Shown one piece after another: positions 50,584 to 63,809 of a stretch of 64,000 bases of DNA. Both the position numbers and the translations under genes were made by a program. Position 1 is the first letter of the stretch. Every line of letters begins with the position of its first letter. Under the pieces are notes generated by a model. The model saw nothing but the letters and a program-made list of their open reading frames with translations, did not search any database and had not been told where the DNA came from. The stretch is from Candidatus Dichloromethanomonas elyunquensis (lineage in GTDB: Bacteria; Bacillota; Desulfitobacteriia; Desulfitobacteriales; Syntrophobotulaceae): NCBI GenBank assembly GCA_001515265.1, contig LNDB01000006.1:1-64000 (forward strand). The letters are read 5' to 3'.

Positions 50584-51126
50584 ATGATTTCAACCATGAT
50601 GCTGTCTATTACCTTAGTTTATATGGTTCTGGTAGTACTGTATGAGTCTTTCTTAACCCCCTTCATCCGCTTGTTCTCTCTACCCCTGGGCTTTATAGGG
50701 GCTTTGTTTGCCTTGGCCATTACCAGAAACACCCTCAATATGTATTCCATGATTGGCTTTATTATGATGGACGGGTTGGTTGCCAAGAACGGGACCTTGC
50801 TTTTGGATTATACCCTGACACTAATAAGTGGGGGTAAAACACCAAGGGAGGCAGTGATTGAAGCCGGGATGACCCGTATCCGGCCGATTGCCATGACCTC
50901 GCTGACTATGATTTTCGGAATGCTCCCTACGGCTTTAGCCGTCAGTGAAGGTGCTGAACAACGGGTGGGTATGGCCTGGGTCTTGATAGGAGGATTAATT
51001 ACTTCTACTGTCTTTACCTTAGTCATTATCCCGATCCTATTTTTAGCTTTCAACAGCCTGAAAGATAGACTTAAGCAAAAGCAATGGCCGAAATTTAGTT
51101 TTAAGAAACTTGGTTCTCAGGCGTAG
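50584..51126 (+). pseudogene. C-terminal fragment of an RND (AcrB-type) efflux pump
   Basis: 180 residues equal to the last sixth of AcrB-family proteins: LVYMVLVVLYESFLTPFIRLFSLPLG, GFIMMDGLVAKNGTLLLDY, EAGMTRIRPIAMTSLTMIFGMLPTALA and GAEQRVGMAWVLIGGLITSTVFTLVIIPILF. Full proteins have over 1000 residues, the N-terminal part is absent, and no ribosome site is apparent. The stop codon lies inside the right-hand repeat. Confidence 0.85.
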
Positions 51127-51475: not shown

Positions 51476-51646
51476 AATAACTCTACATTCATTTGAGGCT
51501 TAGCCTGTGGAATGGGAGAGCCAAATAATAAGTTTTTCAAGATCGTCCTGCTTAGGTGTGGTGTACTGTTCTATTTGTACAGTTACTGTTCCTGAGTTTT
51601 TTTATTGTTCTGAAAAAAAATGCGCATCAGATTGGAGGAAAAAATC
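51476..51646 (+). other. Remainder of the 51.1-51.6 kb non-coding stretch
   Basis: Contains an ACTGT/ACAGT inverted repeat (about 51565-51583) followed 12 bp later by TTTTTTTATT, which could be a weak terminator, then the TTGGAGG ribosome site of the next gene. Confidence 0.4.
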
Positions 51647-52846
51647 ATGGGAAAAGTACTTGTAATCGGCTGCGGTGGTGTAGCCGGCGTTGCGATTCAT
51701 AAAATCTGTCAGAATTTTGAAGCTTTTGGTGAGTTGTGTATTGCCAGCCGTACTAAATCAAAGTGTGATGTACTGGCGGAGAAACTCGGGGGCGGCAAAA
51801 CTAAAATTACTACTTCCCAGGTGGATGCCGACAAGGTAGGAGAACTCATAGCGCTAATCAATAAAGAAAAACCTGAAGTCGTTATAAATCTCGCTTTGCC
51901 TTACCAGGACCTGCATATTATGGATGCTTGCCTTGCTACGAAGACCCATTATGTAGACACTGCCAACTATGAGCCTGAGGATACCGCTCATTTTGAATAC
52001 AAGTGGCAGTGGGCCTACAGGAAAAAGTTCAAAGAAGCCGGGATTACAGCACTGCTTGGATCCGGCTTTGATCCCGGCGTTACAGGTATATTCAGTGCGT
52101 ATGCCTTGAAACACCACTTTGACGAGATTCATGAAATTGACATCCTTGATTGTAACGGCGGAGACCATGGCTATCCCTTTGCTACGAATTTTAATCCCGA
52201 GATCAATATCCGGGAAGTCACAGCCAAAGGCAGGTATTGGGAAAACGGACGTTGGGTGGAAACTGAGCCTATGGAGATCAAGCGGGAGTATAATTTTAAG
52301 GGCATAGGGATGAAAGAGATGTATTTATTGCACCATGAAGAGCTGGAGAGCCTTGCCCTCAATATCAAAGGGATTAAGCGTATCCGTTTCTTTATGACCT
52401 TCGGCCAAAGTTATCTGACACATCTAAAATGTTTTGAGAATGTCGGTATGACCAGTATTGAACCTATTCAGTATAACGGGATGGAGATCATACCTTTACA
52501 ATTTTTAAAAGCCATCCTTCCTGACCCTGCTTCTCTCGGGCCCCGCACTAAAGGAAAGACCAATATTGGCTGTATTTTTAAAGGCATCAAAGACGGCAAG
52601 GAAAAAACGTATTATCTTTACAATATCTGCGATCATCAGGAGTGCTACCGCGAAGCGGGCAGCCAGGCAATCAGCTATACAACGGGAGTACCGGCCATGA
52701 TCGGGGCGATGCTTGTGATGAACGGCACTTGGTCGAAACCCGGCGTTTACAATATGGAAGAATTTGATCCCGATCCATTTATGGAGGCGCTCAATATTTG
52801 GGGGCTGCCTTGGGAAGAAGACTTCAATCCGGTGTTGGTACCGTAA
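51647..52846 (+). CDS. Carboxynorspermidine synthase (saccharopine dehydrogenase-like)
   Basis: 399 residues from ATG 51647 (GGAGG site); ATG 51620 is less likely. Rossmann start GKVLVIGCGGVAGVAIHKI, VINLALPYQDLHIMDACLATKTHYVDTANYE and GSGFDPGVTGIFSAYAL are typical of carboxynorspermidine/carboxyspermidine dehydrogenase. It condenses aspartate semialdehyde with a diamine using NADPH. The next gene starts directly at its stop, giving the two-step carboxynorspermidine route to norspermidine or spermidine. Confidence 0.92.
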   Translation: MGKVLVIGCGGVAGVAIHKICQNFEAFGELCIASRTKSKCDVLAEKLGGGKTKITTSQVDADKVGELIALINKEKPEVVINLALPYQDLHIMDACLATKTHYVDTANYEPEDTAHFEYKWQWAYRKKFKEAGITALLGSGFDPGVTGIFSAYALKHHFDEIHEIDILDCNGGDHGYPFATNFNPEINIREVTAKGRYWENGRWVETEPMEIKREYNFKGIGMKEMYLLHHEELESLALNIKGIKRIRFFMTFGQSYLTHLKCFENVGMTSIEPIQYNGMEIIPLQFLKAILPDPASLGPRTKGKTNIGCIFKGIKDGKEKTYYLYNICDHQECYREAGSQAISYTTGVPAMIGAMLVMNGTWSKPGVYNMEEFDPDPFMEALNIWGLPWEEDFNPVLVP

Positions 52847-53980
52847 ATGGAGCAGTATTTTTATCAGGTTCCAACTCCGAGCTATGTTATTGACGAGAAG
52901 CTGATTATTCGCAACCTTAAGATTTTAGACGAAGTACAAAACCGAAGCGGCGCAAAAATTTTGCTGGCCCAAAAAGCGTTTTCCATGTTCAGCGTTTATC
53001 CCTTGCTTGCCCAATCCCTCACAGGAACAACAGCCAGCGGATTATTTGAGGCCCGGCTTGGATTTGAAGAATTTGGCAAAGAGGTACACATTTTCAGTCC
53101 TGCTTATCGGGACGATGAATTTGATGCAATTCTCAAGGCGGCAGACCACATTGTTTTTAACAGTATTTCTCAATGGAAAAAGTTTGGAGTCAGGGCGCTT
53201 ACGGCGGGAAAACAGTGCGGTTTACGGGTAAATCCCGAGTGTTCCACGCAAAACGGCGGAGAAATATATGATCCTTGTGCCCGATACTCACGGTTTGGGG
53301 TAACCAAGGCTAACCTGGACGCTGATGAACTTTCGGGACTATCCGGCCTTCATATGCATACATTGTGCGAACAGAATGCGGATGCCTTGGTAACAACCCT
53401 CGAAGCCTTTGAATCCGCTTTCGGAAAATATCTATATGGTATGAAATGGCTGAACCTAGGCGGAGGGCATCACATTACCCGATCGGATTACGACCTGGAA
53501 CTTCTGATTCGAACCATTAAACGGCTGCAAGAGACCTATAGCATCACAGTTTACCTGGAACCGGGAGAAGCGGTAGCGCTGAATGCCGGATTTTTAGTGT
53601 CATCGGTTTTGGATACGTTACAAAACGAAATGGATATTGCTATTCTGGATACTTCAGCAGCCTGCCACATGCCGGATGTGCTGGAAATGCCCTACCGTCC
53701 CTATATTATAGGGGCCGGCCGGCCTCAAGAAAAAAGGTTTACCTATCGTTTGGGCGGACCCACTTGTCTGGCGGGGGATATCATTGGAGACTATTCTTTT
53801 GACCAGCCGCTACAGCCGGGGGATCGTCTGGTGTTTTGCGATATGGCTATTTATTCGATGGTTAAAAATAATACCTTTAACGGCATTCGGTTGCCGGATA
53901 TTATTCTGCGAAAGAATCAGGGGACGCTGGAGATGATTCGCAGATTTGACTACTTAGACTTTAAACACCGTTTATCCTAA
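52847..53980 (+). CDS. nspC: Carboxynorspermidine decarboxylase
   Basis: 377 residues, fold III PLP decarboxylase. PLP Lys in ILLAQKAFSMFSV (about 45), GLHMHTLCEQN, WLNLGGGHHIT, the E-PGEA phosphate site (YLEPGEAVAL) and C-terminal CLAGDIIGDYSF are present. It removes CO2 from carboxynorspermidine or carboxyspermidine. The start codon abuts the stop of the upstream synthase gene, so the two are a translationally coupled pair. Confidence 0.93.
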   Translation: MEQYFYQVPTPSYVIDEKLIIRNLKILDEVQNRSGAKILLAQKAFSMFSVYPLLAQSLTGTTASGLFEARLGFEEFGKEVHIFSPAYRDDEFDAILKAADHIVFNSISQWKKFGVRALTAGKQCGLRVNPECSTQNGGEIYDPCARYSRFGVTKANLDADELSGLSGLHMHTLCEQNADALVTTLEAFESAFGKYLYGMKWLNLGGGHHITRSDYDLELLIRTIKRLQETYSITVYLEPGEAVALNAGFLVSSVLDTLQNEMDIAILDTSAACHMPDVLEMPYRPYIIGAGRPQEKRFTYRLGGPTCLAGDIIGDYSFDQPLQPGDRLVFCDMAIYSMVKNNTFNGIRLPDIILRKNQGTLEMIRRFDYLDFKHRLS

Positions 53981-54645: not shown

Positions 54646-55884
54646 CTACAGCACAGGTGTATCTTCGTGACCAGTTTCTGTTCTGATTATTGTTCTATAG
54701 GCATAAGGTGTCATGCCAGCATGCTTTTGGAAGGCCCTTGTAAAGGTTCGCAATGACTTAAACCCAATTTCCTTTGCGATAATACCGGTAGAAATATTAG
54801 TTGCTCCAAGCAAAGAGAATGCTTTATTTATCCTTATCATTGACAGGTAATCGGGAAAAGACATCCCAAAATATATCTGGAACTCTTGATTTAATCTCTG
54901 CTCGTTTACTTCAAATTGCTTTGCTAACCATTCTACATTTAAATCCTTTGTATAATTTTGAAATATATATAGGACGATCTGTTCCTTTAATGCGGTTGGA
55001 ATAGCTTTCACAGTTGTTTCAATGCAACGGAAAAGATATTGGCGACGGTATTTGTCAGGGGTCAGGTTCCAAATCTTTTTAAAGGTGCGAAAAAAAGTAG
55101 CATCGGATTGAAAGCCCACAGTTTTGGAAATAAAGGATACTGAGAGCTCTGGAAAAGCTAAAAGTAAAGAACATGCATTTCGTATGCGTACTTCATTAAG
55201 CAAACCGGTAAAATTTATGCCCAGAGTTGAATTGATTTCTAAGTTGAGTTCTGAAGAGCTGTAATTTAGCTGTTCTGCGACCGATGTCAATGTAATGTCA
55301 TCACCGGAATGTCGATAAATATATTTAATCGCCTTCCATGCGTCATGTTTTTCCGCTGCCTGTTCGGATTTGTGTTTGGATTGCAGACGCAAGTATTTCA
55401 GAAATAGATGAAAAGCTTCATTGGCAAATAATGAACTAAAGTGGCTGTCTTCTCTATTGTTAATTAATGAGTGGTAGATATTTTCAAGAGTATTCTGTTC
55501 TTCGGAAGAGCACTGAATAACTGGCGGAGATGAAAAGATCAAATTGATGATTTCATTAAAGTTTTCTCTGATATCCAATTTTTTCAGGAGCAACCCATGA
55601 TCAAAACTGCAACGGTAATATATTACCGGTATTTCGCTTTCGGATTTTATTTCATGAACATGATAAGGCAAGACTAAAGAAAAAGAACCAGGCTGGATAG
55701 GATAGGATTGTTCATTGATAATATGTGTTCCTTGTCCGGAAATAAATAAAAGAATCTCGATAAAATTATGTCGGTGTAAAGTTATAGTAGTGTCCAATGC
55801 ATCTAAGGACACATGAATTTCGTGAGGAGCAAGAGGCAAGATTTCGATGTTATCAGGTCCGAAATAGTATGGGGTATACTTCAT
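54646..55884 (-). CDS. AraC-type regulator with one sensor and two DNA-binding domains
   Basis: 412 residues. 1-110: cupin sensor (ITLHRHNFIEILLFISGQGTHII; PIQPGSFSLVLPYHVHEI). 110-180: helical linker. 185-282: first AraC DNA-binding domain (ITLTSVAEQLNYSSSELN; SFISKTVGFQSDATFFRTFKK...LTPDKYR). 305-400: second complete one (LNVEWLAKQFEVNEQRLNQEF; IIAKEIGFKSLRTFTRAFQK...MTPYAYR). Two full AraC domains in one chain are unusual. Its start codon overlaps the stop of 55881-56471 (ATGA), so the two are coupled. Divergent from the hydrogenase operon. Confidence 0.92.
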   Translation of the reverse strand: MKYTPYYFGPDNIEILPLAPHEIHVSLDALDTTITLHRHNFIEILLFISGQGTHIINEQSYPIQPGSFSLVLPYHVHEIKSESEIPVIYYRCSFDHGLLLKKLDIRENFNEIINLIFSSPPVIQCSSEEQNTLENIYHSLINNREDSHFSSLFANEAFHLFLKYLRLQSKHKSEQAAEKHDAWKAIKYIYRHSGDDITLTSVAEQLNYSSSELNLEINSTLGINFTGLLNEVRIRNACSLLLAFPELSVSFISKTVGFQSDATFFRTFKKIWNLTPDKYRRQYLFRCIETTVKAIPTALKEQIVLYIFQNYTKDLNVEWLAKQFEVNEQRLNQEFQIYFGMSFPDYLSMIRINKAFSLLGATNISTGIIAKEIGFKSLRTFTRAFQKHAGMTPYAYRTIIRTETGHEDTPVL

Positions 55885-56471
55885 AAATCAGAAGTCTCCT
55901 TAGCTTTCTTGTATTGCTGAATAATCAGGCTTGTCTTTCCTTCAAAGCAGTTATATTTATTTGAAAGGGCAGCATGCAAATGAAAAAGCGATATCAGATG
56001 AACCTTAATGAATAGGGGAGAAAGCAGATCTTGCCGCTGGCGGTATTCACAGTATAATCGCTCAAAAGTTTCCAGTAACAAGGCAAAATCCATAGAGTCA
56101 CAAGGTAAGAATGGTTGAATCGTCAAAAAATAATTAATTTCTTGAATTTGCGGAATTGGATAGATATGTTCTTTGGCTATATAGCTCCAGTTAAACTTAC
56201 AAAGCATATATTTAAGAGGCTGGGAGCGTTTAACAGTAATTTGTGTCAAGTGAAAAGGAGTTAAAAAACAAAATGTTCCGGGTGATATATCATAAGGAAT
56301 GCCATTTACATGAATAACTCCTTCTCCAGATAAAAATAAATAGAATTCAAAAAAATTATGTTCTTCCAGTGAACTAAAATCAATAAATTTATCAACCTTG
56401 ACTTCTATAAGAGTTGAGGTATCAATATTATACCGGTCCCCACTGCTGTCTCGATTCTTTGTTAGGGTCAT
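55881..56471 (-). CDS. AraC-type sensor domain lacking DNA-binding domain
   Basis: 196 residues. Same cupin sensor pattern as the next gene (EEHNFFEFYLFLSGEGVIHVNG; ISPGTFCFLTPFHLTQITV), then the helical linker, ending SLIIQQYKKAKETSDL where an AraC DNA-binding domain would begin. It is a genuine stop, not a frameshift: the next gene has its own complete sensor. Read with its neighbour, the pair holds two sensors and two DNA-binding domains, both of the latter on one chain. Confidence 0.88.
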   Translation of the reverse strand: MTLTKNRDSSGDRYNIDTSTLIEVKVDKFIDFSSLEEHNFFEFYLFLSGEGVIHVNGIPYDISPGTFCFLTPFHLTQITVKRSQPLKYMLCKFNWSYIAKEHIYPIPQIQEINYFLTIQPFLPCDSMDFALLLETFERLYCEYRQRQDLLSPLFIKVHLISLFHLHAALSNKYNCFEGKTSLIIQQYKKAKETSDL

Positions 56472-56774
56472 TCGAATAACTCCAATCGTCTTTTAATATT
56501 CTATAATAATGTATCCATACAGAATAAATTATAATACAAATTTGTGAAGTATAGTACAAAAAAATCTTCTTTTTTTATGTTATAAAATATAGATAATTTG
56601 TCATTTAATATGTTCGTAATTTGTTTCACAAATTAATGAATTTGACCTTATTGCAATATAAATAATCTCAGAAAGTTTATCCATAAAACAGTGCGAATAT
56701 ATTTTATTAGTATATAAAAAGAGCTATAATAAAGACTGAAAAGAAATTTTTAGAAAATTCTAAATAAATTAATA
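56472..56774. promoter_or_regulatory. AT-rich divergent control region with repeated ACAAATT half-sites
   Basis: No gene. Sites: the palindrome ACAAATTTGT (56536-56545); TTGTGAAGTATAGTACAA (56542-56559), an 18-bp imperfect dyad resembling a Rex operator on its left half; AATTTGT at 56595; and a long inverted repeat TAATTTGT-TTC-ACAAATTA (56617-56635). They lie upstream of the hydrogenase promoter and just upstream of the regulator genes, so they are candidate operators. Confidence 0.5.
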
Positions 56775-56946: not shown

Positions 56947-58026
56947 GTGAAGAATTTAGATAAGCTAAGTTCTAGAGGAATTTCAAGACGTAAATTTTTA
57001 CAACTTATCGCTGCAGCTACAGCGGCATTAAATCTTCCTAACGCTGTAATTCCGAGGGCTTCTAAGGCTGTAGAGGCAGCTTTAGGCAAACCGCCGGTAA
57101 TTTGGTTGGAAGGAATGGACTGTGCCGGCTGTACGGAATCCTTACTCGCGACCCTTAATCCTTCCGCGGCAGAAGTAGTGTTGGATATGCTCTCAATCCG
57201 ATATCACGAAACGATTATGGCCGGATCCGGTGAAGTTGCAGAGCAAGCTTATCAAGAAACCCTGCGAGGGAATTATATTTTAGTTGTTGAAGGAGCAATC
57301 CCATCCCAAGAAGATAGATATTGCATTGTTGGAGGCAAGCCTTTCCGAAAAACTGTTTTAGAAGCTGCACAGAAAGCTCAGGCCATTATTGCTGTAGGGA
57401 GCTGCGCTACCGATGGGGCCGGAATCCCAGGTGCTTGCGAGGTGAATGCTGTAGGTGTCCGCGAACTACTGAAAGCGAATGGCATTAATACACCGGTAAT
57501 AAACTTACCTTCTTGTCCTGTAAAACCTGCAACTTTGCTGGGAACGATTATCTATTACTTAACCTATAAGAAAATACCGCCGCTTGATACACAAGGCCGC
57601 CCAGTTGTCTTTTACGGAAAACTTTTGCATGATAATTGCCCGCGTCGAGGACAGTTTGAAGCAGGTAATTTCCTAAGAGACTGGAATGACCCTCAGCAAA
57701 AAGATTACTGTTTACTGTTGAAAGGCTGTAAAGGGCCAAAGACGTATACCGACTGTGCTCAAGTCTGGTGGAATGATAATGCTAATTTTTGTATTAATGC
57801 CGGTTCTCCTTGTTCCGGCTGTTCCGAAGCAGGCTTTTATAAAAATTTCAGCCCTCTTTATGCTAAGCAGGAAAACTTCCAGCTTCCTGGAGCCGGACCC
57901 GTTAACGCCGATAAGGCCGGCAAAATTATTGGAGCTGTTGCCGCTGCCGGTGTAGGGATCCATCTCGGGGCTTCGGCCCTAAGCGGACGGCTGGGGAAAA
58001 AAGACGAAAAACAGGAGGAGGTATAA
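56947..58026 (+). CDS. NiFe hydrogenase small subunit (group 1, Tat-exported)
   Basis: 359 residues, GTG start behind AAAAGGAGG. Twin-arginine signal ISRRKFLQLIAAATAAL (about 12-28). The proximal cluster Cys pair is DCAGCTES; the extra cysteines of oxygen-tolerant enzymes (CTCC) are absent, so a standard oxygen-sensitive type. GSCATDGA, LPSCPVKP, LHDNCPRRGQFEAG and the medial/distal cluster region CKGPKTYTDCAQVWW...CINAGSPCSGCSE follow. The C-terminus carries a membrane anchor (GAVAAAGVGIHLGASAL). Catalyses H2 exchange on the outer face with the large subunit. Confidence 0.95.
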   Translation: MKNLDKLSSRGISRRKFLQLIAAATAALNLPNAVIPRASKAVEAALGKPPVIWLEGMDCAGCTESLLATLNPSAAEVVLDMLSIRYHETIMAGSGEVAEQAYQETLRGNYILVVEGAIPSQEDRYCIVGGKPFRKTVLEAAQKAQAIIAVGSCATDGAGIPGACEVNAVGVRELLKANGINTPVINLPSCPVKPATLLGTIIYYLTYKKIPPLDTQGRPVVFYGKLLHDNCPRRGQFEAGNFLRDWNDPQQKDYCLLLKGCKGPKTYTDCAQVWWNDNANFCINAGSPCSGCSEAGFYKNFSPLYAKQENFQLPGAGPVNADKAGKIIGAVAAAGVGIHLGASALSGRLGKKDEKQEEV

Positions 58027-61147: not shown

Positions 61148-61792
61148 ATGAAAAACGTTTATGAGGCAAATCAGCAGATTGCCAACCGAAACAGGAGTAA
61201 ATTTAAAGAAAACGGTATTTTTGCATTTGACCTCATGGGGTCTCCCGGTGCAGGTAAAACTTCACTTTTGGAGGCAACACTAGGTATGCTGAAAGAATAT
61301 GTCAAGCCGGCTGTTATTGAAGGAGATCTTTCAACTGCTTTGGATGCCGGACGCATCTCAAATCTTGGTATTCCGGTAATTCAAATCAATACGAATGGGG
61401 AATGCCACCTTGATGCCAGAATGATAGACAAGGTGCTTTCTGGTTTTAATTTGGATGAAGTTGACCTGATGATTATTGAAAATGTCGGTAATCTTGTTTG
61501 TCCGGCTGAATTTGACCTTGGGGAGCATTTTAAAGTTGTGGTCATCAGTGTTGCTGAAGGGGCAGATAAGCCGGTGAAATATCTGCCGGCCTTTCTAGCC
61601 GCAAGTGCGGTAGTCATTAATAAGACTGATCTTTTGCCCTATTGTGATGTTGATATCAACCAAATGAAGAAAGATATCCTGGATATTAATCCCGATATGA
61701 AGATATTTGAAATATCGTGCCGGCTGAAGGAAGGCCTTGCACCATGGGTGAACTATATACTGGAAGGGATTAAAGGGACAAAAAGTTCATGA
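61148..61792 (+). CDS. hypB: Hydrogenase nickel incorporation GTPase HypB
   Basis: 214 residues. Walker A MGSPGAGKTSLLEATL (about 32-46), NTNGECHLDARMID (metal Cys/His), ENVGNLVCPAEFDLGE and the NKTD base-recognition motif (VINKTDLLPYC). It lacks a His-rich N-terminal tail, so nickel storage is not expected. Stop overlaps the hypF remnant start. Confidence 0.95.
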   Translation: MKNVYEANQQIANRNRSKFKENGIFAFDLMGSPGAGKTSLLEATLGMLKEYVKPAVIEGDLSTALDAGRISNLGIPVIQINTNGECHLDARMIDKVLSGFNLDEVDLMIIENVGNLVCPAEFDLGEHFKVVVISVAEGADKPVKYLPAFLAASAVVINKTDLLPYCDVDINQMKKDILDINPDMKIFEISCRLKEGLAPWVNYILEGIKGTKSS

Positions 61793-62504
61793 TTAGCCGA
61801 GCTGCTCTTCATGTTTCTGGAATCGTCCAGGGAGTAGGCTTTCGTCCGTACGTATATAACTTAGTTCATTTGTTCCCTTCCTGCAAAGATACCCTCTCCG
61901 GCAAAGACTGAGGTTATCAATATTGTTTAAATTCGCTGGGATAAACCGTTTGCAGTCATGATGCCTATTTGGAAACTGTAAAAGACTACAGTATTATCCA
62001 TGATATTGAGAAAAATTTGCTTTTATCCCCAAAAAAGGCCTATCGTACTCCTGGAGAAAAAGCAGGGGATTCACGTACCTTTCCACAAAATATGCCCTTG
62101 ATTATCCCGGAAAAACTATAAAGATTGGCGTCCAGCATCATCACGCCCATCTTGCTTATATACAAATGCCGTCCGGAGCTATGGCGATTAAAGAACCTTG
62201 GCGTATGGCGGCATCTTATCTCTATACTGTATACGGCAGGGAAATGGAGGGGCTGGAGACTATAGCCGCCGGTGAAGCTGGAAATTATTCTTTCAATGTT
62301 GTTGAAACAGTTGCTTTGAGCGGGGGCGTATTCCAGAATCTATACCTGCTGGCTAAAACTGAAGATCTGCTGTCCGGGTGCGGGTTTCGGGTTCTGATGC
62401 ACAAAGGAATTCCGCCTAATGACGATGGATTATCCTTAGGGCAGGCTCTTATTGCCCATTCGCAAGCAATCGCAGATGGAAAGGAGAATGTTGCATGTGT
62501 TTAG
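61789..62504 (+). pseudogene. hypF: Decayed hypF (carbamoyltransferase)
   Basis: 716 bp against about 2.2-2.3 kb for an intact gene. Recognisable pieces, in order, are: acylphosphatase start VSGIVQGVGFRPYVYNLV (stop at 61909); the YrdC-like piece RWDKPFAVMMP and then LETVKDYSIIHDIEKNLLL and PIVLLEKKQGI in other frames; YLSTKYALDYPGKTIKIGVQHHHAHLAYIQ joined directly to MPSGAMAIKEPWRMA with the intervening about 50 residues missing; and the Kae1-like end VALSGGVFQNLYL...PPNDDGLSLGQALIA. The zinc-finger region is gone. At least three frameshifts plus internal deletions. Confidence 0.93.
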
Positions 62505-62740
62505 CGGTTCCGGGAAAGATTGTTAAAATTAAGGATAGACAAATAGCTGATGTAGACTATGGGAGTCTAATGAGAGAAGTGAGTTTGAGACTCATTCCAG
62601 AAGCCGGGGTAGGAGATTGGGTGCTGGTACATGCAGGCTTTGCCATCCAGGTGTTGGATGAGGGAGTAGCAAAAGAAACACTGAGCATTTTTGAGGAGCT
62701 GCTGCAACGTGAAGAATTTGAATGTGGAAAATTTGAATGA
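62495..62740 (+). CDS. hypC: Hydrogenase maturation chaperone HypC
   Basis: 81 residues, AAGGAGAATG site. MCLAVPGKIVKI with the essential N-terminal Cys2. Carries Fe(CN)2CO between HypD and the large subunit. Overlaps the end of the hypF remnant. Confidence 0.95.
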   Translation: MCLAVPGKIVKIKDRQIADVDYGSLMREVSLRLIPEAGVGDWVLVHAGFAIQVLDEGVAKETLSIFEELLQREEFECGKFE

Positions 62741-63809
62741 AGAATTACGCGATCCCGCCAAAGTTCAAGCTTTATTGTCGGCAATCCGAAAATTTGGATC
62801 GCGGTCCATATCACTAATGGAAGTATGCGGTACGCATACCATGTCTATCTTCCGTTACGGGATAAGGGAGATGCTTCCTCAAAACATTAAGCTCTTATCC
62901 GGTCCCGGATGTCCGGTCTGTGTTACCCCTTACCGGGCCATCGATGAAGCTATTGCAGCAGCTAAACATCCAAATAGGATTTTAACTACTTTCGGGGATA
63001 TGGTACGTGTCCCCGGTTCTAGAATGAGTCTGGCACAAGCAAAAGCAGAAGGAATTGACCTGAGGGTTGTCTACTCTCCGCTTGATGCGGTAGGTCTGGC
63101 GGCAGAAAATCAGGACAGGGAAATTATCTTTTTGGCTATTGGGTTCGAGACTACTGCTCCGACAATTGCTGCAGCCGTTCTCACGGCTGAGGAACTGAAC
63201 TTAAAAAACTTTAGTATTATTGGAAATAATAAAACTTTGCCGGGGGCGCTTCGTGTTCTGCTTACCAGCCCTGACGTAAAAGTCGATGGGTTGATTTGTC
63301 CCGGACATATAAGTACAATCATTGGGAGCGAACCATTTAGATTCATACCTGAAGAACTCGGTATTCCGGCAGTAATTACCGGTTTTGAACCAGTCGACAT
63401 CCTGCAGGGAATATATATGTTGCTGACTCAGATTCAAAAGGAAACCGCACAAGTGCAGATTCAATACAGACGCGGTGCGTCATCGGGAGGAAACCCTCAT
63501 GCCCTTAAGCTCTTAAACCAAGTGTTTCAATCCGGAGATGATAATTGGAGAGGATTTGGGGTAATTCCGGGCACAGGTCTTAAAATAAAAAAAGAATATG
63601 AACATTTTGATACTCTTAAAAAATTTAATGTCACTATCCCTGATGTGGATGATCCTATCGGATGCAGGTGCGGGGACGTCTTACGGGGAGCGGCTGCTCC
63701 ATTAGAGTGCCCCATGTTTGGGAAAGCCTGTACTCCCGAGAAACCTGTTGGGGCTTGTATGGTATCAACAGAAGGCACTTGCGCAGCTTATTATAAATAC
63801 GGAGGATAA
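62709..63809 (+). CDS. hypD: Hydrogenase maturation protein HypD
   Basis: About 366 residues from GTG 62709 (AGGAG 10 bp upstream); overlaps hypC. Motifs LMEVCGTHTMSIFRYGI, LLSGPGCPVCVTP, FGDMVRVPGS, GFETTAPT and C-terminal GCRCGDVLRG...CPMFGKACTPEKPVGACMVSTEGTCAAYY (4Fe-4S) are intact. Scaffold for assembling the Fe(CN)2CO unit. It is complete although its partner hypF is broken. Confidence 0.95.
   Translation: MKNLNVENLNEELRDPAKVQALLSAIRKFGSRSISLMEVCGTHTMSIFRYGIREMLPQNIKLLSGPGCPVCVTPYRAIDEAIAAAKHPNRILTTFGDMVRVPGSRMSLAQAKAEGIDLRVVYSPLDAVGLAAENQDREIIFLAIGFETTAPTIAAAVLTAEELNLKNFSIIGNNKTLPGALRVLLTSPDVKVDGLICPGHISTIIGSEPFRFIPEELGIPAVITGFEPVDILQGIYMLLTQIQKETAQVQIQYRRGASSGGNPHALKLLNQVFQSGDDNWRGFGVIPGTGLKIKKEYEHFDTLKKFNVTIPDVDDPIGCRCGDVLRGAAAPLECPMFGKACTPEKPVGACMVSTEGTCAAYYKYGG

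Follow-up and report, generated by a model that had tools for sequence, protein, structure and literature searches.

A sensor-only AraC-type protein coupled to a regulator with two DNA-binding domains: a candidate two-gene heterodimer

Introduction

Classical members of the AraC/XylS family carry one sensor and one DNA-binding domain (DBD) per chain. In a stretch of 64,000 nucleotides from Candidatus Dichloromethanomonas elyunquensis (contig LNDB01000006.1; the window), two adjoining genes depart from this layout: the chain encoded by gene A has no DBD, while that of gene B has two. This raises the question of whether the two proteins form a single regulator, with both DNA-binding heads on one partner, or whether B acts by itself beside a regulator gene that lost its DBD. 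If A and B are a working heterodimer, sensing would be parted from DNA binding within the AraC family, one DNA-bound complex would read two signals, and the pair would serve as a natural test case for the number of DBDs required by an AraC complex and for their arrangement on DNA. Targeted literature searches, whose narrow phrasing makes them weak evidence of absence, returned no account of AraC proteins with a cupin and twin DBDs. The genes and their parts are as follows.

55881..56471, minus strand: gene A, sensor-only AraC-type cupin protein of 196 aa (PF02311, without HTH)
54646..55884, minus strand: gene B, cupin sensor with two tandem AraC DBDs, 412 aa (PF02311 and two copies of PF12833)
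55881..55901, minus strand: A-B coupling junction, with the AAGGAG ribosome binding site (RBS) of B and the ATGA overlap, read from the sequence
55039..55278, minus strand: DBD1 of B (HTH_18, 60.8 bits), which clusters with the first DBDs of other twin-DBD proteins
54691..54927, minus strand: DBD2 of B (HTH_18, 66.1 bits)

Results and discussion

A sensor-only gene is coupled to a twin-DBD gene

An earlier note on this DNA described a sensor-only protein coupled to a protein with a sensor and twin DBDs, and the ORFs, the ATGA overlap and the Pfam domains are all as claimed there. In A, Pfam detected AraC_binding (PF02311) at residues 36-162 (32.3 bits against a cut-off of 21.1) and no HTH match, leaving A without the DBD expected of an AraC/XylS member. 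The protein does have the cupin fold and C-terminal dimer helices of the PF02311 ligand-binding/dimerisation domain. In the AlphaFold model (mean pLDDT 83.3), the entire cupin and helices 126-144 and 151-177 are predicted at about 90 or more, with low confidence limited to the N-terminus and the last helix, 181-194. The two helices that A keeps form the dimer contact in AraC, and among the best PDB matches of the model are RhaR, BgaR and AraC, each as an isolated sensor domain. For B, Pfam detected AraC_binding at 33-160 and two HTH_18 domains (PF12833; 118.9 bits in all against a cut-off of 33.6). The predicted structure (mean pLDDT 81.6) comprises a cupin barrel, helices and two seven-helix DBDs at about 181-291 and 297-404, with all seven helices in each DBD modeled mostly at 80-95 confidence. 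Its DBDs with two HTH motifs place B in the AraC/XylS family, as a regulator of a twin-DBD subtype. The pair thus holds the parts known from AraC, RhaR and RhaS, a cupin sensor with dimer helices and a seven-helix DBD with two HTH motifs.

A is the first gene, preceded by its own GGAG site, and its ORF shares four bases, ATGA, with that of B. Its C-terminal codons KETSDL (aag gag act tct gat tta tga) contain both the AAGGAG RBS and the start codon of B, which indicates that the two genes are built for joint translation. Because B starts inside the last codons of A, there is no room between them for a DBD remnant of A. By codon statistics, each gene reads as coding in its annotated frame, and the other five frames do not.

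Neither gene has a counterpart among the relatives searched: no homologue of A and no full-length homologue of B was detected in the other 100, one congener included, and a profile search of the other 82 genomes of the source genome's class returned matches of DBD length only and no cupin-DBD-DBD gene. Third-position GC is 0.31 for A and 0.35 for B, against 0.35-0.50 for other sampled genes. Together, the missing counterparts and low third-position GC suggest recent acquisition of the pair. A plasmid collection yielded no match to A and no recognizable full-length twin gene, viral contigs yielded no relative of A, and one single-sequence search of genome contigs gave a distant HTH match only.

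B belongs to a scattered family that predates the pair

A search with B of 398 genomes spread across the phylum identified full-length relatives in three (G282, G436 and G318; 27-29% identity, E 4e-38 to 3e-48, with 3e-48 for the full-length pairwise match to G282) and single-DBD relatives in two (G278 and G412). With a four-member twin profile, cupin-DBD-DBD genes encoding about 390-440 aa were found in 21 of 247 Lactobacillales genomes, one copy being broken, and a further member is present in G468, from the same family as G436. Twin-DBD proteins are known from 24 genomes beyond the source genome, and their distribution is scattered. B belongs with them by domain order, by the grouping of its first DBD and by alignment, the 23 aligned members (B included) matching over their whole length. 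In 23 of the 24 genomes, no sensor-only neighbor lies in flanks of about 1.5 kb, so proteins of the B type evidently work alone elsewhere. These stand-alone regulators (G318, G678, G621, G436, G282 and others) have the same three-domain order as B along their full length, at 21-27% identity in the family alignment, and differ from it in lacking the sensor-only neighbor. One Lactobacillales genome, G585, has two twin-DBD genes (L182, G585:C1:258000-276000) separated by about 5 kb, both distant in sequence from other twins.

The earlier note pictured the pair as a conventional regulator in which one DBD had moved. The trees and the distribution argue against this: DBD1 of B groups with DBD1 of the remaining twin proteins (support 96/81), and cupin-DBD-DBD proteins exist without A in 23 other genomes, which together rule out a move from A to B as the simple origin. 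A recent internal duplication in B is likewise ruled out, as a topology holding its two DBDs together was rejected (AU p=0.017). The history of the second DBD is less uniform. In the best careful tree it sits beside single-DBD proteins, in a quick tree it sits among the other second DBDs, and a clade of all second DBDs was not rejected (AU p=0.394); DBD2 of B may have been replaced from elsewhere. Judged from these comparisons, the twin layout predates the A-B pair.

The Lactobacillales members come with a characteristic neighborhood. For 18 of the 22 twin genes in this order, a divergent gene of the NAD-dependent epimerase type is the immediate neighbor or is separated by a single gene. In 8 of 14 loci (L158-L163, L165 and L168), the short divergent intergenic region between the two genes contains a block close to AAGTKAGTGWWTWGTCTYTTTT, a candidate operator of the twin-DBD family. 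The conserved neighbor and candidate operator make these twins a clean system for examining how the DBDs are placed on DNA.

A second coupled pair is found in another class

The flanks (about 1.5 kb) of two twin loci, G468 and G734, contain a cupin-only second ORF. The G734 locus (L181, 5184-6345) was rejected as a third pair. Its twin gene is frameshifted, such that a cupin ORF leaves the frame and a DBD-DBD ORF begins inside DBD1, while same-genus relatives (L175, L176) are intact. In G468, whose class differs from that of the source genome, the two genes are as follows.

L154:1480-2772, minus strand: twin-DBD gene, cupin with twin DBDs, 430 aa
L154:953-1483, minus strand: sensor-only gene, cupin only, 176 aa, with an ATGA overlap with the twin gene

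As for A and B, a cupin-twin-DBD gene and a sensor-only gene are ATGA-coupled. The pair differs from A-B in that the order is reversed, with the twin gene first, and in that identity to the A and B proteins is only about 26%. The sensor-only gene, whose final codon includes an ambiguous base, stops 91 bases ahead of a convergent alcohol dehydrogenase gene, leaving no space for a DBD after the cupin. On profiles, this cupin scored 56.7 bits with the twin family against 10.3 and 25.2 bits with two single-DBD groups. The N-terminus encoded by the gene divergent from the pair looks, by eye, like that of an aldehyde ferredoxin oxidoreductase. A sensor-only partner is thus present at 2 of 4 twin loci outside Lactobacillales. 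The earlier note had named lack of conservation as grounds for dismissing the pair and had proposed a search for sensor-only genes next to twin-DBD genes elsewhere; that search returned one true case, and by this comparison of loci the pairing recurs.

The broken twin gene in G734, with its separate but overlapping cupin and DBD-DBD ORFs, raises the question of whether a frameshift or an assembly error has divided a single gene into A and B. We regard this as very improbable. B has a complete cupin, RBS and start of its own and A has a separate cupin, so that a fusion would read cupin-cupin-DBD-DBD, a layout not seen in any relative, and the two-gene layout in G468 is similar.

A may be a partner of B rather than a remnant or an antagonist

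The stand-alone state of the twin-DBD relatives in 23 of the 24 other genomes suggests another explanation, in which B works alone as they do and A is what is left of a duplicated regulator minus its DBD, with little or no function. In alignments, the last residues of A fall on helix 1 of the DBD and its ORF stops at the start of that helix, so A resembles a regulator shortened at this point, as if cut. The absence of A homologues from the 100 relatives also fits. A decayed gene would sit poorly, however, with an ORF that is intact, codon-biased in its own frame, predicted to fold as a whole domain and carrier of the RBS of B, or with a sensor-only gene of the same kind in G468. On balance we consider this explanation unlikely, though it deserves serious weight. 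Sequence affinity says little about where A came from. The closest cupin in identity is that of B (25-30%), the profile scores of A (50.0 bits with the twin family, 40.9 and 47.4 with the two single-DBD groups) do not decide its origin, and a cupin tree gave no placement for it.

The combination of retained dimerisation helices and a missing DBD would also suit a dedicated antagonist or independent sensor, which would bind the B cupin and block or titrate B with no DNA-bound heterodimer being formed. By analogy, DBD-less partners acting on AraC-type regulators are known, namely the ANR family (PMC5570504) and HilE, a modulator of the AraC-type regulator HilD (PMC10696396). In the parts of these accounts available to us, neither ANR proteins nor HilE are described as AraC-type cupins or as coupled to twin-DBD regulators, and we consider an antagonist role for A rather improbable.

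In the most likely arrangement, DNA binding falls to B as the regulator, and A would serve as its cupin partner, forming a heterodimer with B and tuning it. We put the probability that A and B work as such a two-gene AraC-type heterodimer at roughly 45%. B would be the only DNA-binding subunit, its two DBDs contacting two neighboring half-sites, and A would join the B cupin through the AraC-type sensor-domain interface. The A:B complex would then have two sensors and two DBDs, as in a normal AraC homodimer, except that a single chain would carry both heads. Binding of ligand by A, B or both could switch B between a homodimer (two sensors, four heads) and the A:B heterodimer. The most likely target of the complex would be the promoter of the pair itself, with the divergent hydrogenase operon as a possible second one. 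This model draws on the domain content of the two chains, the dimer helices modeled at high confidence in A, the matches of A to the isolated AraC and RhaR sensor/dimerisation domains and the ATGA coupling, in which A contains the RBS of B. It also draws on the second coupled pair, with no room for a DBD after its sensor-only gene, on the affinity of that gene's cupin to twin-family cupins and on the top identity of A to the B cupin. The model is weakened by the small number of pairs known (two), by the 23 of 24 other twin-DBD genomes with no such neighbor, by the absence of A from the other 100 relatives and by its missing placement in the cupin tree. More tentatively still, the two lineages with opposite gene orders could represent a split-function AraC heterodimer, obligate or ligand-controlled, in which one chain makes all DNA contacts and a DNA-free chain reads a second signal.

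The intergenic region is more consistent with autoregulation than with hydrogenase control

The earlier note also drew attention to repeated ACAAATT sites between A and a divergent hydrogenase operon.

56536..56634, no strand assigned: five ACAAATT/AATTTGT copies, candidate operator, 65-163 bp upstream of the A start; the parts include ACAAATTTGT (56536-56545) and an inverted repeat, TAATTTGTTTCACAAATTA (56617-56635)
56947..58026, plus strand: [NiFe] hydrogenase small subunit, divergent neighbor and first gene of the operon (TIGR00391, 318.8 bits)

The 475-base intergenic region contains these five copies where 0.39 would be expected, a count reached for this motif in 0 of 2000 shuffles. However, the region has a GC content of 21%, and its shuffles typically have a top 7-mer count of five, with an 8-base palindrome also within chance. 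Most shuffles of a region this AT-rich contain a 7-mer with as many as five copies, so the cluster by itself is not significant, and the repeats are a suggestive operator candidate at best. The AAGTKAGTGWWTWGTCTYTTTT-type candidate operator of Lactobacillales was not found in this region, where the best score was 1.0 and shuffles averaged 4.2. The repeats lie 65-163 bp from A and more than 300 bp from the hydrogenase start, and as an operator would serve the A-B pair first. Autoregulation would thus be the simpler reading of these distances.

The divergent position of the hydrogenase operon was also as described, but the linkage is not conserved. The small subunit has orthologues at 53-78% identity in 20 related genomes, and the AraC pair was absent from their flanks in 20 of 20. 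No copy of ACAAATT was detected in the 500 bases upstream of 19 of these orthologues, and two copies were found in the remaining one. The operon is a possible target of A-B by position only. Short-chain dehydrogenases and flavin oxidoreductases lie near the twin genes of G282 and G436, and together with the epimerase-type genes of Lactobacillales and the aldehyde ferredoxin oxidoreductase-like gene of G468 these neighborhoods point to oxidoreductases as a common theme of the twin-DBD family, which a hydrogenase would fit.

Other genes in the window

Between a hypB-like gene (61148-61792) and a hypD-like gene (62691-63809) lies a 112-aa ORF (62166-62504) whose match to the HypF C-terminal domain covers just the final 48 positions. 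The hypF gene, normally a large maturation gene, is thus reduced here to this ORF. A 180-aa ORF at 50584-51126 looks by eye like the C-terminus of an efflux pump of the RND type and is probably a remnant, the remaining gene being missing. At 51620-53980, a carboxynorspermidine synthase-like gene (below the NCBIfam cut-off) is followed directly by nspC, encoding carboxynorspermidine decarboxylase.
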